From a virus: a DNA stretch of 31,845 nucleotides. The stretch spans positions 1 to 31,845 of IMG/VR virus record IMGVR_UViG_3300032282_006110; one strand, given 5' to 3'. Positions 8,004 through 18,271 of the stretch are shown here, piece after piece (within the stretch, counting starts at the first letter, position 1; each line of letters starts with the position of its first letter). A model generated the notes under the pieces. The model worked only from the letters and a program-made list of their open reading frames with translations, searched no databases and was not told where the DNA came from. The translations under genes were made by a program, and so were the position numbers.

Positions 8004-8090
8004 TTAGTTCAGATTAGACAAAACACACCTCATATAGTCCGAATTAATTCGGTTACTAATGTTTATCGATATGTTATGCCAATTCTTCAT
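8004..8090 (-). CDS. 28-aa leader ORF of array 2
   Basis: Short frame beginning MKNWHNISINISNRINS, Asn/Ser/Ile-rich, between the array 2 promoter and terminator. No SD sequence, but the A-rich lead-in (TTACAACAATG) is usual for Bacteroidota. Candidate attenuator leader peptide; may be non-coding. Confidence 0.4.
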   Translation of the reverse strand: MKNWHNISINISNRINSDYMRCVLSNLN

Positions 8091-8123
8091 TGTTGTAATT
8101 ATTGTTTGTTTATAAATATGGTA

Positions 8124-8153
8124 CAAAGATACTAAAGTTTTTTTATTTGTCAA
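8124..8153 (-). promoter_or_regulatory. Array 2 promoter (TTGACA-N16-TATCTTTG)
   Basis: TTGACA at 8148-8153, TATCTTTG at 8124-8131. Nearly identical over about 45 bases to the array 4 promoter, including a CATATTTAT motif just downstream. Confidence 0.8.
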
Positions 8154-8723
8154 TTAGTTTTCTTCTTTTTTTTCGGATTTTATTTCATCCATCATTTTTT
8201 TAATTTCAGCAGCCTTCTCATATCTTTCTTGTTCAACCGCTCTATCCAAAGCTATCTTAAGTTTTGCTAATTTAACATTCTTAATTTCTTCAGGACTACT
8301 TTCTTTTTTCTTACCAAATGTTTTTTCCCATCTTCTAGCAATTTCATCAGATAAATCTGTTTCATCACCGGCACTTGAAGACCTACTAAATGAACTGTAA
8401 GAGATTGAACCGTCAGGTGATGTCCAATTTTTAGTTTCCCATTCACCGTTTTCATCCTTACCACTTTCAATGTCTAATTCATCCTCTGGAATTTCAAAAT
8501 TCTTCTTGAAGTCTTCTTTTGAAGTTAGAGGTATAATTCTAAAATCCAAAGGAGTTCCAAAATCTTTTTGAGAAAGTAACATTTTCATTAATTCTTGAAA
8601 ATCTTTTTGAGCCCTTTCCATTTCTCTTTTGAAATCTTCATCGTTTTGCATACGATTGTTAAATTTTTCCCAACGATTCATAAAATCGTCATTAAATTCA
8701 TCATCATTATCAAAAATTCCCAT
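8154..8723 (-). CDS. Charged UVR-motif protein, 189 aa
   Basis: The N-terminal ~55 residues are an acidic/aromatic helical region (MGIFDNDDEFNDDF onward). The middle contains WTSPDGSISYSSFSRSSS, a low-complexity Ser stretch. The C-terminus (residues ~155-182) reads KIALDRAVEQERYEKAAEIK, a good match to the UVR helical hairpin of UvrB/UvrC and Clp adaptor proteins, which mediates protein-protein contact. No catalytic domain is present, so it may be an adaptor. Monocistronic, with a TTGACA-type box and a GATATTTATA motif upstream. Confidence 0.6.
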   Translation of the reverse strand: MGIFDNDDEFNDDFMNRWEKFNNRMQNDEDFKREMERAQKDFQELMKMLLSQKDFGTPLDFRIIPLTSKEDFKKNFEIPEDELDIESGKDENGEWETKNWTSPDGSISYSSFSRSSSAGDETDLSDEIARRWEKTFGKKKESSPEEIKNVKLAKLKIALDRAVEQERYEKAAEIKKMMDEIKSEKKEEN

Positions 8724-11726: not shown

Positions 11727-12047
11727 TTAGAAACCATATTCATTTCTGGGTTCGTTGGGACTTAAGTCTTGTAGTTCCATCATTTCTTCAGTCACTTCTT
11801 CTGCTGTTAAATAACCTTTAACGTCACCGTCACAACTTCTCCAAATTTCAAAAGTTGTTATTCCATCACCATAAAGACCTATACCACCACCAACAACTGA
11901 TATACGGTGTCCGTTATCAAATTCCATGATAGCCTGTTTTCCACCCATACCATTACGATGTGGGTAAAACTTTAAATCCTTAAAGGTCTTATAACCATGA
12001 TAAGGATCTGTTAAATTATGCCTCTGTATTTTCTTGTGTGGTTTCAA
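11727..12047 (-). CDS. Hypothetical phage protein, 106 aa
   Basis: Basic N-terminus, then MGGKQAIMEFDNGHRISVVGGG-type beta sequence and IWRSCDGDVKGYLT. Its layout (an F.NG..ISVV strand, then glycines and an acidic tail) is common in small conserved phage proteins of unknown role. The start as drawn overlaps the upstream gene by 32 nt; a later internal Met is possible but would remove conserved-looking sequence. Soluble, no signal. Confidence 0.55.
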   Translation of the reverse strand: MKPHKKIQRHNLTDPYHGYKTFKDLKFYPHRNGMGGKQAIMEFDNGHRISVVGGGIGLYGDGITTFEIWRSCDGDVKGYLTAEEVTEEMMELQDLSPNEPRNEYGF

Positions 12048-12240
12048 CTGATTTTACTTCTTCAATTATTTTTTTATACTCCTTTAACAAATTTTCATAA
12101 GATGCCAAATCCAATGGTTTAAGTCTGTTAAAATATTTTCCGATTTTTGATTCTGCCATTGTGATTTCACGATTTTTAATTTGAAACATAAGGTTTGCAA
12201 CTTTTCTTTCTAAGGTCTCGATTTGTTTATCTGGGTTCAT
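12016..12240 (-). CDS. Small coiled-coil protein, 74 aa
   Basis: Helical throughout: ETLERKVANLMFQIKNREITMAE fits heptad spacing, followed by a second helix (YENLLKEYKKIIEEVKS) and a polar tail. No catalytic motif. It is divergent from the flavodoxin-fold gene at 12301 across a 60-nt intergenic region. Function unknown; a dimeric scaffold or regulator is a guess. Confidence 0.55.
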   Translation of the reverse strand: MNPDKQIETLERKVANLMFQIKNREITMAESKIGKYFNRLKPLDLASYENLLKEYKKIIEEVKSVETTQENTEA

Positions 12241-12286
12241 ATAATTTATTTTTAATAAAGATAATGATAAACTTATATAAAATCAA

Positions 12287-12296
12287 AATATTTATA
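12287..12296 (+). promoter_or_regulatory. AATATTTATA start-proximal motif
   Basis: Exact motif ending 4 nt before the ATG at 12301, the same spacing as at 2846 and 26780. Confidence 0.45.
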
Positions 12297-12300
12297 ACAT

Positions 12301-13077
12301 ATGTCTGATATTAGAATAAAAATAAAAGAAGAGGTTTTAAAATTCCGTCAAGAGATTTTATCTGAAGAAATGGTACAATCTGATGCTTACAAAGCTTTAT
12401 CAAAAACTTTAAAAGTGTTAAAGAAAAAGAATAAAGTTTTATTATTAACTTGTTCCAACAGATTTAATTGGGATGATAACAATATTGATGTACCAAAATC
12501 AACAATTATTGCTCACTACTTGGAGGAAGAATTGGGTGATAAAGTTGTTTTAATAGATGTTCCTGAATTAAAAATATTTGCATGTGAGGGTAATGTATCA
12601 AGAAAAGATGGTAACAGTTGTGGTCTTAAAAAAGCCTTATTAAAAAACAAAGATAAAAATCCTTCAGGTTTTCATAGATGTTGGGCAAGTTTTAATAATA
12701 AATCGGATGAATTGTGGAAAATTTCAAAAGAATTGTTTGAATCTGATGCTGTAGTTTTCTTTAGTTCTATTAGATGGGGTCAGGCCAATATGCATTACCA
12801 AAATTTAATTGAGCGTTTAACTTGGATTGAAAATAGACACAATACCTTGGGTGAAAGTAATATTATAAAGGATATTGAATCAGGTTTTATCTGTGTAGGT
12901 CAAAATTGGAATGGTGAAAATGTTACTGAAACTCAGAAGAAAGTTCACGATTTTTACGGTTTCAAAACAAATAATGATTTATATTGGAATTGGCAATATA
13001 CCAAAGATGTTTATGATGAAACGCAAGAGTCTTATAAAAAGGCTTACGGTAAATTTATTAAAGACACAAAAATCTAA
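12301..13077 (+). CDS. Flavodoxin-fold NAD(P)H-dependent oxidoreductase-like protein
   Basis: 258 aa. After a helical N-terminus, KVLLLTCSNRFNWDD begins a flavodoxin-like beta1-loop with a phosphate-binding character (PKSTIIAHYLEEELG helix). It is followed by VVLIDVPELKIFACEG and VVFFSSIRWGQAN, matching the strand order of NADPH-dependent FMN reductases/WrbA-like proteins. The FMN-binding role is inferred. It carries an added C-terminal aromatic segment (YWNWQYTKDVYDETQ). Convergent with the LpxH-like gene; the ends overlap by 4 nt. Confidence 0.6.
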   Translation: MSDIRIKIKEEVLKFRQEILSEEMVQSDAYKALSKTLKVLKKKNKVLLLTCSNRFNWDDNNIDVPKSTIIAHYLEEELGDKVVLIDVPELKIFACEGNVSRKDGNSCGLKKALLKNKDKNPSGFHRCWASFNNKSDELWKISKELFESDAVVFFSSIRWGQANMHYQNLIERLTWIENRHNTLGESNIIKDIESGFICVGQNWNGENVTETQKKVHDFYGFKTNNDLYWNWQYTKDVYDETQESYKKAYGKFIKDTKI

Positions 13078-14540: not shown

Positions 14541-15182
14541 CTAACCGTTTTGGTCTCTTCTTCTACGAGATTTACGTTTAGGTATAAATTTAAATGGTAA
14601 CATATCAATTTTAATCAATATAGATTCAAATATACCTTTTGTATACCAACCTTCTTCGTTAGGTAATGAAATATAATTACTGTCGGTAAAGTATTGATTG
14701 TAATCTAAAAACTCTAAAAGACCCCCTGTCGGTGGTTCCAATGGTTGTACTGTAACTAAATCTAAACCCATTGTTTGTACAGCAACTCTTCTAGCTATAG
14801 GCAACATGATATTCCCAAAATCAGGTTGATTATTATCTTGTGGGGCTCTATAACCTTGATTTAAAATATTACCACCGATTTGGTTCCATCTGTTAAAAAT
14901 TTCTTCTTGTCTATTGTTGTTGTAAAACCTTTGATTGTCATGTAAATCTCGGAGTATTTGTTGGTCAATTTCGTTTCTTATATTTTCAGTCAGTAAAGCA
15001 GTTAATTCAGCCTCAGCATCTATATTATGAAAAGCAGTTATGTCTTGTGCCATTTCAGGAGTCCATACAGCTCTAATTCTACGAGTTTCACCAACAACAT
15101 TAACTGAAGTAAATCTTATATTAATAGTTTCTTTATTTGTTGGGTCGACAAAACAAAATCCAGGTACTGATTTACTAATCAT
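14541..15182 (-). CDS. gp23-type capsid-motif protein with permuted segment order
   Basis: 213 aa. Residues ~35-82 match the central block of T4-type major capsid protein gp23: TRRIRA-W-PEMAQD, then DAEAEL and IRNEID. Residues ~127-165 match the gp23 N-terminal block: PIARRVA...L..VQPLEPPTGG. In gp23 the N-terminal block comes first, so here the order is reversed. The C-terminus is basic (KRKSRRRRDQ). It overlaps the 75-aa gene upstream by 4 nt. It is probably a virion shell component or a rearranged paralogue; it is too short to be a normal major capsid protein. Confidence 0.65.
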   Translation of the reverse strand: MISKSVPGFCFVDPTNKETINIRFTSVNVVGETRRIRAVWTPEMAQDITAFHNIDAEAELTALLTENIRNEIDQQILRDLHDNQRFYNNNRQEEIFNRWNQIGGNILNQGYRAPQDNNQPDFGNIMLPIARRVAVQTMGLDLVTVQPLEPPTGGLLEFLDYNQYFTDSNYISLPNEEGWYTKGIFESILIKIDMLPFKFIPKRKSRRRRDQNG

Positions 15183-15406
15183 AACGTAATTGTACTATAG
15201 TATCCGTTATTTATGGTATTAATTCCGTATCTTGATAACATACCCTGTCTAGGTTGGAAATCTGTCACAAAGTCAACACTCATTATATAAGGTGCCCAAG
15301 TATATCCAGGGTTAAGAAAAGGTTGACCTTTACTCCCAAGTATAATACGCCACTTAGGTCCACCCCTTAAAAAATCATGTACCCTAATATCTTTCTCAAT
15401 CACCAT
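15179..15406 (-). CDS. gp23 C-terminal-like capsid fragment, 75 aa
   Basis: GYTWAPYIMSV and FQPRQGMLSRYGINTI match the C-terminal block of T4-type gp23 (pattern: aromatic, APY, then FQP-x-G-x(2)-[TS]RYG). It is encoded immediately 5' of, and overlaps by 4 nt (ATGA), the gene holding the other gp23-like blocks, so the C-terminal part comes first in the operon. It could be one subunit of a split capsid protein. The AATATTTATT motif ends 4 nt before its ATG. Confidence 0.65.
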   Translation of the reverse strand: MVIEKDIRVHDFLRGGPKWRIILGSKGQPFLNPGYTWAPYIMSVDFVTDFQPRQGMLSRYGINTINNGYYSTITL

Positions 15407-15410
15407 ATTA

Positions 15411-15420
15411 AATAAATATT
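15411..15420 (-). promoter_or_regulatory. AATATTTATT start-proximal motif
   Basis: On the coding strand, ends 4 nt before the ATG at 15406, overlapping the stop of the preceding gene. Confidence 0.45.
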
Positions 15421-16153
15421 ACTCAACTTCCATTGAAACTGTACACTTAGGACAAGGATAATCAATATTAAAACGTTTATCTTTTACGATTTTTGTACTA
15501 CCACAACAATCGTATTGTTTAGTGTCCGTTTTTTTCGGATAAGATTGTTGTTCATACAAACATTTTAAAGTTTCGTCGATAATATAAGCGTATCTATGTT
15601 TTTGAGTCCGATTAATCCAAACACCTTGCTTATCTTTTGTCGGTCCCCTTGGGTTAACTTTCCATTCACCATTTTCATTAAAGTGGAAAAAGTCTGACTT
15701 CTTATCAGTTAAACCATAGTATCTAAAGTTACAAACTTGGTAGATACTTCCATTATGTCGACTATCGTCAGCTAAAGTTATAACTGCTCTAATACCTTCT
15801 TTTTTCAATAACCTTATACTATTACCTAAAAGGTAGGAAGTTGCATTAGTACCGTTTAAATCAGGTAATACACATAGTCTACTAAGTTCCATTACTGTTT
15901 GGTCTGAGTTTTCTAACCCAAACCAACCTTTAAGTGCCACATTACCTTGTGGATTACTAAAGGTAGTTACACCCATTAATTCGTTTGTTTCCTTATGGTA
16001 TAAGCCAAAAGAAAATTTAGCAAAGAATTTAGCCTCACCTAAGTAATGATAGGTTTTAACAAAATCGTAAGCAATTTTTTTATCAATTAATTTTATAGTA
16101 AAAATTGTGTTCGCCTTTACTTCTCTAGTAATGAACTTTATAATATTATCCAT
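15419..16153 (-). CDS. Mom-like GNAT-fold protein (putative DNA modification)
   Basis: 244 aa. YHYLGEAKFFAKFSFGLY, LMGVTTFSNPQGNV, ELSRLCVLPDLNG, ATSYLLGNS and TLADDSRHNGSIYQVCNFRYYG follow the pattern of phage Mom-type acyltransferase-fold proteins, which modify adenine in phage DNA to block restriction. The ELSRL block and the AD..H.G.iYq..nF block are the strongest signs. A C-terminal CCG...CPKC zinc-ribbon-like region (residues ~218-238) could bind DNA. Anti-restriction activity is inferred from the family; activity on this phage's DNA is not shown. Confidence 0.7.
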   Translation of the reverse strand: MDNIIKFITREVKANTIFTIKLIDKKIAYDFVKTYHYLGEAKFFAKFSFGLYHKETNELMGVTTFSNPQGNVALKGWFGLENSDQTVMELSRLCVLPDLNGTNATSYLLGNSIRLLKKEGIRAVITLADDSRHNGSIYQVCNFRYYGLTDKKSDFFHFNENGEWKVNPRGPTKDKQGVWINRTQKHRYAYIIDETLKCLYEQQSYPKKTDTKQYDCCGSTKIVKDKRFNIDYPCPKCTVSMEVE

Positions 16154-16675: not shown

Positions 16676-18271
16676 TTAGGCCTGAACTTCTTGTTCGGTT
16701 TCAACTTCGACCTTAGTCTCGATTTCATCCCAAACAGAGATTAATTCACTAGCGTACAACGCTTCTTTTCCAGTCCAACCTGTTAATATTCCACCTCTAT
16801 AAAGATTACAAGGTATTAAACTGTTATTGTAACCCGCAACTTGGGTTGTAAATATATTAACTTTTGAGTTAACCTTTTCACGATATTCTTCCACCATTTT
16901 AAGTACGTCAACGTAGTTACCACCATTTTCGTGGACATCATTACGATTTATGTTTGTACCGTACAAATTCCCTGTGCCTGCTTGCATATCACTATAGATA
17001 AAGATTGTATCATAGTGAACTTTATTGTCAATTGCTTCACGTAAAAACAACCAAATTCCATGTTCACAAGATTGGCCTTGTGCTTTACCTCTTTTACAAG
17101 TTTCTTCCAACTGAGTGATAATACCGTCTCTTTTAGAAACAGGTTTTAAACTTAATCTTTCACCAAAAACACCAACATATCCTTCATCAGAACATAATGC
17201 CGTGATGATAGAAGATAAGTTTGCAATTTCTGCGATGTGTGTACTTCCGTATTCAGAAGTCATTTGACCCCAAGAAGAACCTGAGTTATCAGACAAACAA
17301 GCCACTTTACCCTTTAACTTAGGGAAGTTTGTTAGGGAGATATCCAAACACTCTTGTAAAGTGTCAAGAATCATACCCTTATGGTTGATGGTAATCTTGT
17401 CGATTTCCTTATACGCCGTGTAGTAACGGAATGGAAATTGTTTACCGTAAAGAACACCACCTTTAAGGTCGGCCATAACTTTCTTAGCCAACTCAGTATC
17501 GTTCACTTCAGTAAAGATACCACGAAGGTTTCTTAAAAGAGCCATGTGTGGAACCTTAATTGTGTTAAGGATTTCCTTCCAATTTTTACCTTGGGACTTA
17601 AGTGACTCCCATGTTTGTTCCGTTTCAGAAACAGCCACGTCACCTTTCTTCATTAACTCGTCAATTACTTCTGAGTGAGCGTGAGAAATACGTACCAAGT
17701 CAATTAATGACTTTGACTTGTACTTGTGGATTTGGTATCTCCCAAAAGTAGCTAACTTATCGGCCCAAGTACGTTTTACGATTGAAGGGAGATTGTTCTT
17801 AGAACCCTTCAAGAACATGTAATAGTCGAATTGATTGGTGATATCATCAGGACGACCAACGATTTCCATACCAATTTTCTTCATAAAACCTGGGTTGGCC
17901 TCATTAAACTCAACACGCTTTGGGTGTTGAGATGCTCTAATGAAGATAACCGCTGGGTTAAGTCTCATGAACATTTCATGACGAAGTTTAACCGCGAATT
18001 CAAGGGTTGCCTTGAAGTCATAGTCCAATGCGGCATCAATAGCCTTAGTGAAAACATCAGTGGTTGTCTCACTTGGGTCGGTATACATACCCAAAATGTC
18101 GTGTCTTTTCAGAGTTGACAAGTTTGAAGGTTTGTCATGAGAACCTCTGTAATAAGAAGGTTCACCGAAGATAGATGAGGCTGCCACGATACGAAGAGTA
18201 TCAAGTGGGTTTAAGGTATAAGAAATACCACCATCGAAATTTTCTACTGCTTTTGATTTGAATTTTGTCAT
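16676..18271 (-). CDS. Ro60 (TROVE-domain) RNA-binding protein
   Basis: 531 aa, close to the ~540 aa of animal Ro60. The N-terminal ~300 residues are helical-repeat (TROVE) sequence. The C-terminal von Willebrand A domain has an intact MIDAS DxSxS (D328, S330, S332 in LSDNSGSSWG) and a later acidic position in IYSDMQAG (~428). Ro60 is a ring that binds Y RNAs and the ends of misfolded RNAs; in bacteria a Y RNA can tether it to polynucleotide phosphorylase. It is the last gene of an operon: SLOG protein, 3-nt gap, Ro60, with a long non-coding transcription unit upstream. The base composition is visibly less AT-rich than its neighbours. Confidence 0.92.
   Translation of the reverse strand: MTKFKSKAVENFDGGISYTLNPLDTLRIVAASSIFGEPSYYRGSHDKPSNLSTLKRHDILGMYTDPSETTTDVFTKAIDAALDYDFKATLEFAVKLRHEMFMRLNPAVIFIRASQHPKRVEFNEANPGFMKKIGMEIVGRPDDITNQFDYYMFLKGSKNNLPSIVKRTWADKLATFGRYQIHKYKSKSLIDLVRISHAHSEVIDELMKKGDVAVSETEQTWESLKSQGKNWKEILNTIKVPHMALLRNLRGIFTEVNDTELAKKVMADLKGGVLYGKQFPFRYYTAYKEIDKITINHKGMILDTLQECLDISLTNFPKLKGKVACLSDNSGSSWGQMTSEYGSTHIAEIANLSSIITALCSDEGYVGVFGERLSLKPVSKRDGIITQLEETCKRGKAQGQSCEHGIWLFLREAIDNKVHYDTIFIYSDMQAGTGNLYGTNINRNDVHENGGNYVDVLKMVEEYREKVNSKVNIFTTQVAGYNNSLIPCNLYRGGILTGWTGKEALYASELISVWDEIETKVEVETEQEVQA

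Follow-up and report, generated by a model that had tools for sequence, protein, structure and literature searches.

The window analysed here, a fragmentary virus record of 31,845 bases (IMG/VR IMGVR_UViG_3300032282_006110), carries two small genes, g1 and g2, which together are a conserved accessory operon composed of the N, M and C blocks of the T4-type capsid protein gp23, a new tail and a basic end (Table 1). The pair does not encode the shell protein but belongs to a widespread and apparently undescribed group of capsid-derived proteins that would act as helpers, decoys or inhibitors. Tentatively, we propose that its products may be capsid mimics, acting in trans and modulating head assembly.

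Capsid blocks split and rearranged over two genes

An earlier note on this DNA had claimed that T4-type capsid motifs are split over two genes and stand in reversed order, and our profile comparisons bear out both points. The Pfam model of Gp23 (PF07068, 376 positions) matched g1 at model positions 303-354 and g2 twice, at 132-196 (g2 aa 18-82) and then at 4-38. In an HMM built from eight full-length gp23s of other phages, g1 corresponded to positions 476-535 of 542 and g2 to 293-358 followed by 63-116, and the clade HMM agreed. Block HMMs, for which 81 gp23s from the related clade of huge phages were used, gave the M block of the window 87 bits (1e-25), the C block 34.8 bits (2e-9) and the N block 15 bits (0.003), the last of these being weak taken alone. 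Against gp23 models overall, the N block gave E values of 1e-3 to 1e-6, and that of a relative (L065/G029) reached 25.3 bits, above Pfam's cut-off. Reversed-protein decoys of the same ORF sets produced no match at E<=0.01 for any block, which, together with the profile scores, rules out a chance resemblance of motifs. In the PDB, the g2 family matched T4 gp23 at 253-308 (M) and weakly at 68-120 (N), and a blind search with the g1 family returned T4 gp23 chains as the sole matches, at E of about 0.7.

The block order is thus C in one chain and M-N in the other, and the pair lacks gp23 regions of about 117-290 and 360-475, which correspond to the E-loop/insertion and to most of the A-domain. The view of g1-g2 as a capsid-derived, split and rearranged product of about 288 aa in total agrees with the gp23 profiles; the coordinates, the sum of 75 + 213 aa and the 4-nt overlap reported before were also right. 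Since C, M, N reverses the gp23 order of N, M, C, a single circular permutation cannot produce it, and we rejected an origin by circular permutation or tandem duplication as belonging to the wrong cyclic class. The g1 stop and the g2 start share the four nucleotides ATGA, through which translation of the two genes is probably coupled. A natural g1-g2 fusion by frameshift was rejected as well: no fused homologue was found, and all junctions read as coupled starts.

Table 1. Positions of the gene pair, its blocks and other features mentioned in the text (window coordinates unless a record is named)
Feature	Position	Strand	Description
g1	15179..15406	minus	75 aa; C-terminal gp23 block; homologues in 10 loci
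g2	14541..15182	minus	213 aa; M then N block; homologues in at least 11 contigs
C block	15185..15358	minus	g1 aa 17-74; gp23 C-terminal region, ...GYxxAPY...P..G..SRY...NN.YY
M block	14934..15131	minus	g2 aa 18-83; gp23 strand plus spine-helix region, RRIRAVWTPEMAQD..NIDAEAELTALL
N block	14685..14846	minus	g2 aa 113-166; gp23 N-arm region, LPIARRVAVQTMGLDLVTVQPLEPPTGG
g2 conserved tail	14583..14675	minus	aa 170-200, 31 aa; YISLPNEEGWYTKG.FESILIK.DM.PFKFI
g2 Arg/Lys-rich C-terminus	14544..14582	minus	PKRKSRRRRDQNG
Spacer between Mom-like gene and g1	15407..15418	minus	12 nt; contains motif AATATTTAT
Mom-like (GNAT) gene	15419..16153	minus	PF25680, 7.9e-28; phrog_1384; constant upstream neighbour of the pair
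Ro60/TROVE RNA-binding protein gene	16676-18271		PF05731; adjoins the Mom-like region in relatives too
GEVED/Ig protein	19181-22303		1040 aa; type IX secretion signal (CHU_C)
Relative of the GEVED/Ig protein	23802-24353		183 aa; 42% identical to the C-terminal end of the 1040-aa protein
DnaJ-type co-chaperone (PF01556, PF00226) and HNH endonuclease	26788-27798, 22437-22958
gp23 N block/gp21 protease chimeras	L208:757-1335, L209:3731-4402		the L208 region adjoins a phage IF-3-like gene (L208:226-720)
Tagged LR745206.1 ORFs (L322-L353)	e.g. 222206-222391, 255010-255237, 440158-440361, 460435-460686		35-83 aa
ORFs starting with MRNLIKKILKE or MKFIITE	L095:6264-8063, 8063-8488, 11853-12524; L096:13827-14672; L007:849-1229; L054:6552-6929
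Large ORFs directly downstream of normal gp23	L096:12111-13793, L203:4958-6592		may be homing endonucleases

The pair accompanies a normal gp23

No full-length gp23 was found in the 31.8-kb window. However, a relative of 317,983 bp (G027) has its Mom-g1-g2 operon near 10-12 kb and encodes, at 142,300-144,069, a complete, normally ordered gp23 of 589 aa. The full-length capsid gene that the earlier note had proposed to look for elsewhere in the genome was thus located in this 318-kb relative and not in the window fragment. Its presence rules out the reading of the pair as a fragmented version of the true capsid gene, and the co-occurrence of both in one genome makes the pair an accessory paralogue. 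Neither is the pair the sole or main capsid gene within a gp20-gp21-gp22-gp23 neighbourhood; its neighbours in the window are the Mom-like gene and glycosyltransferase genes. Relatives that share the glycosyltransferase and phosphoesterase genes of the window lack the pair, from which we conclude that it is an accessory cassette.

Regarding the rest of the window, the 1040-aa CHU_C protein and its 183-aa relative point to a Bacteroidota host. The motif ATATTTAT is enriched in the window (16 versus 6.0), and [AG]ATATTTAT is located 2-21 nt upstream of 8 of the 33 window ORFs of at least 100 aa, as well as upstream of several G027 genes; it is possibly a phage promoter or start-site signal. We rejected AATATTTAT as a late promoter: although enriched upstream of genes, it lies too near the g1 start, and the normal gp23 does not have it.

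Conservation and ancestry of the pair

The pair or part of it was found in about 11 IMG/VR contigs representing at least six divergent lineages. In each of the pair loci, the start of g2 either overlaps the stop of g1 or directly adjoins it, the spacer between the Mom-like gene and g1 measures 12-13 nt, and the Mom-like gene is present wherever the sequence extends upstream. Pairwise dN/dS values of g2 were mostly 0.25-0.6 (by region: N 0.26, M 0.32, tail 0.37 and linker 0.45), and its reading frames were still open at dS near 1; g2 is under purifying selection and does not show the lack of constraint that characterises debris. For g1, the values were about 0.2-0.9, with indels, and for the Mom-like neighbour about 0.03-0.16. 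The tail is kept in all g2 homologues, and so is the basic end, the sequence of which varies. Except for the family itself, searches of phages, of local loci and of three large genomes found no relatives of the tail, and hhalign gave no match between the tail and gp23. Some loci have lost blocks: L011 retains M plus the tail, having lost g1 and the N block, and the C block is reduced in L095 and L005.

In a tree of the M block, based on 65 columns and unsure in its finer placement, the g2 M blocks composed one group (98/82) beside gp23 of the huge-phage clade, on branches longer than those of gp23. Such a topology argues for a single origin of the g2 M block near that clade. The N block of the window scored 101 against another gp23 type and 71 against the huge-phage clade, so that the pair was possibly derived from more than one gp23 lineage. 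It should also be mentioned that g2 is 99-100% identical among the window, L005 and L008, with g1 much more diverged, and that between the window and L008 the Mom-like gene is much more diverged than g2; this suggests a recombination patch covering g2 in the three. No bacterial or proviral copies of the pair were confirmed in the genome contigs searched, and PADLOC found no match of g1 or g2 to a known defence family.

Head-protein fragments in other huge phages

A survey combining a profile scan with whole-record searches (P denotes the gp23 propeptide region) revealed similar fragments elsewhere. In G060 (109 kb), N, M and C each have a gene of their own; these three genes, like a fourth that is P-N-like, carry an MRT-type leader. 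G064 carries a P gene, an M+C gene and a chimera of N with the gp21 protease, the latter two having, by eye, a common N-terminal leader region. A C gene and an N+gp21 chimera accompany normal gp23 and gp21 in G062, and G061 has an N gene alongside its own gp23. The gp21 part of the chimeras matched phrog_207 at 7e-7, and PF03420 under its cut-off. G042 (345 kb, same clade), which served as a negative control, had the normal gp23 only, as did the cultured phages immuto, PTm1 and pT24. The PTm1 annotation places a Hef-like homing endonuclease directly after its capsid gene.

In deposited huge-phage records, PF07068 matched small ORFs besides normal gp23; several of these matches, weak alone, recurred with the block HMMs. 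In LR745206 (635 kb), a 157-aa ORF matched the phage's own gp23 over 8-118 (1.6e-19), and P+N, M and C pieces as well as a prohead-core piece were found in small ORFs. The pieces in this phage and in G060 are separated by tens to hundreds of kb. A C-terminal tag, R[KR]x(1-2)[KSN]I[DENK][KRN][ILV][FI], occurs 11 times in the 1,047 ORFs of LR745206, always in a small protein and among its final 14 residues, and nowhere else, against shuffled expectations of 0.05 and 0.1, the former being that for C-terminal occurrences; as the pattern was drawn from some of the members, only the positional restriction and the extra members count as independent evidence. Three of the tagged proteins carry gp23 pieces, and one bears a piece sharing 54% identity with the ORF that immediately precedes gp23 and is probably the prohead core; at least 4 of the 11 bear head-protein pieces. 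The tag common to all 11, of the form RK.KI..IF, resembles a short docking motif, perhaps a clamp-binding one (PIP-type). In other records (L095, L096, L007 and L054; Table 1), many ORFs start with MRNLIKKILKE or MKFIITE. Such starts resemble the capsid-targeting sequences of T4, which end in a gp21 cleavage site, (L/I)xE, and the ORFs are perhaps a large set of packaged internal proteins.

We see an even chance that huge phages carry dispersed small proteins derived from pieces of their own head proteins (gp23 P, N, M and C, the prohead core and gp21), which in some genomes share a short tag or leader and which would act in trans on the partners of the capsid. The pair in the window would then be a compact, non-cyclically rearranged example, maybe a two-chain, A-domain-free mimic of the P-domain.

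Possible roles of the pair

Under our tentative proposal, g1 and g2 would display the conserved surfaces through which gp23 normally makes contact with neighbouring gp23, the scaffold, the chaperone or EF-Tu and would be unable to form the capsomer centre; by occupying the partners of gp23, they would modulate the assembly of the phage's own heads or those of co-infecting T4-type phages. If only docking pieces are needed, block order and single-chain connectivity become irrelevant, which would explain why relatives have the same pieces split, fused or scattered. Capsid mimicry would account for the retention of the most conserved docking regions along with the loss of capsomer-centre and loop regions, for the fact that order and chain seem not to matter, and for the core and protease pieces. 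At the level of sequence, it draws support from the block homology, the paralogy in G027, the purifying selection, the preserved operon spacing and overlap and the recurrence of head-morphogenesis pieces in G060, G064, G062 and LR745206, and, by analogy, from the Gol and Ccm precedents (see below). On the other hand, the Mom-like neighbour gives no hint of a connection with head assembly, the block losses in L011, L095 and L005 imply that not all gp23 surfaces are always required, and the differing tags and leaders of the phage groups weaken the case for one common mechanism.

The same pieces might instead be immune decoys that mimic gp23 and occupy or mislead host sensors of the capsid protein (of the CapRel or Lit/Gol/EF-Tu type) without triggering them, which we consider unlikely. 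The N block matches what we take to be the gp23 region holding T4 Gol, the pieces correspond to motifs that rank among the best conserved in gp23, and fast-evolving g1, with its indels, adjoins the slow Mom-like gene. Capsid proteins do act as immune triggers, Gp23/MCP being a known one (PMC9712102; Gol-Lit). Yet isolated gp23 fragments activate Lit instead of blocking it, no sensor is known for these hosts, and a decoy of capsid sensors sits poorly with the prohead-core and gp21 pieces. We give still less credence to a two-chain capsid subunit, in which g1 and g2 would fold together into an HK97 P-domain with rearranged parts and become a minor protein of the virion head. All three blocks do trace back to a single protein family, the C gene mostly stays beside M-N, with a translational overlap, and BPP-1 proves that a non-circular HK97 permutation exists (PMC3863775); however, the A-domain and E-loop regions are missing, the pieces in G060 and LR745206 lie far apart, and the BPP-1 authors held that the HK97 N-element cannot be permuted (PMC3863775), whereas here M precedes N. 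AlphaFold2 gave no confident model and spoke neither for nor against this reading: g2 reached a pLDDT of 38, and a normal gp23 used as control was equally weak (mean 47, core unresolved).

Just as improbable, in our opinion, is a nucleic-acid-binding protein that would use the capsid helix as a scaffold, the tail and basic end being its functional part, perhaps together with the Mom-like DNA-modification enzyme. Both elements are found in every g2, even in L011 without N and C, and the Mom-like gene always adjoins, but purifying selection also acts on the N and M blocks, and related fragment proteins elsewhere have neither this tail nor a Mom-like neighbour. Least credible of all, the pieces would be recombination debris, i.e., captured gp23 fragments without function. 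The many scattered pieces of varied size and the loss of blocks in some members fit such an origin, and capture could be biased to gp23 by its abundant mRNA. Against it stand the open frames, with dN/dS well below 1 in g2, the conserved overlap and spacing and the strictly C-terminal tag of the LR745206 fragments.

Returning to capsid mimicry, if the fragments act on capsid partners, they would be regulators, competitors or anti-immune decoys of a kind new to phages. In the open-licence literature, we found no matching description of split or fragmentary capsid genes in huge phages, nor of extra genes for cut-up, reordered capsid pieces beside an intact capsid gene. Since such fragments are present in several huge-phage records, deposited ones included, the idea can be checked at once. 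Annotation with gp23 models will mis-call the fragment genes as capsid proteins.

Comparison with known capsid systems

The pair is homologous to the gp23 family (PF07068, phrog_138) in its N, M and C blocks, most clearly in M and C. Unlike gp23, which is one chain with N, E-loop, M, A-domain and C in order, it comprises two chains lacking the E-loop/insertion and most of the A-domain and exists beside a normal gp23. The capsid protein of BPP-1 (Bbp17) is likewise an HK97-type protein with a non-circular order of elements (PMC3863775), and in the open-licence literature we found no such rearrangement described other than that of BPP-1 and the related capsid protein of Epsilon15. However, Bbp17 is a complete major capsid protein made as one chain, with beta and alpha elements exchanged, whereas the pair is not a major capsid protein, its N-element is cut, with M before N, and C is a separate chain. 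The pair tests the proposal of the BPP-1 authors on the N-element, and if g1 and g2 folded together as a P-domain, this would be a third HK97 topology.

A further system for comparison is Ccm of SaPIbov5, a capsid homologue that redirects assembly (PMC8569155). As in the case of the pair, an extra capsid homologue exists here beside a normal capsid gene (in G027 for the pair), and Ccm itself alters head assembly. Still, Ccm is a satellite-encoded homologue of the phi12 CP that builds whole pentamers, whereas the pair consists of short, rearranged, phage-encoded pieces without a complete capsid fold. Finally, Gol, a 29-residue gp23 region that binds EF-Tu (PMC3014915), provides in the Gol/Lit/EF-Tu system a precedent for a short gp23 region acting in trans on a host protein, with the difference that Gol is a part of normal gp23 and the pair is encoded by separate genes.
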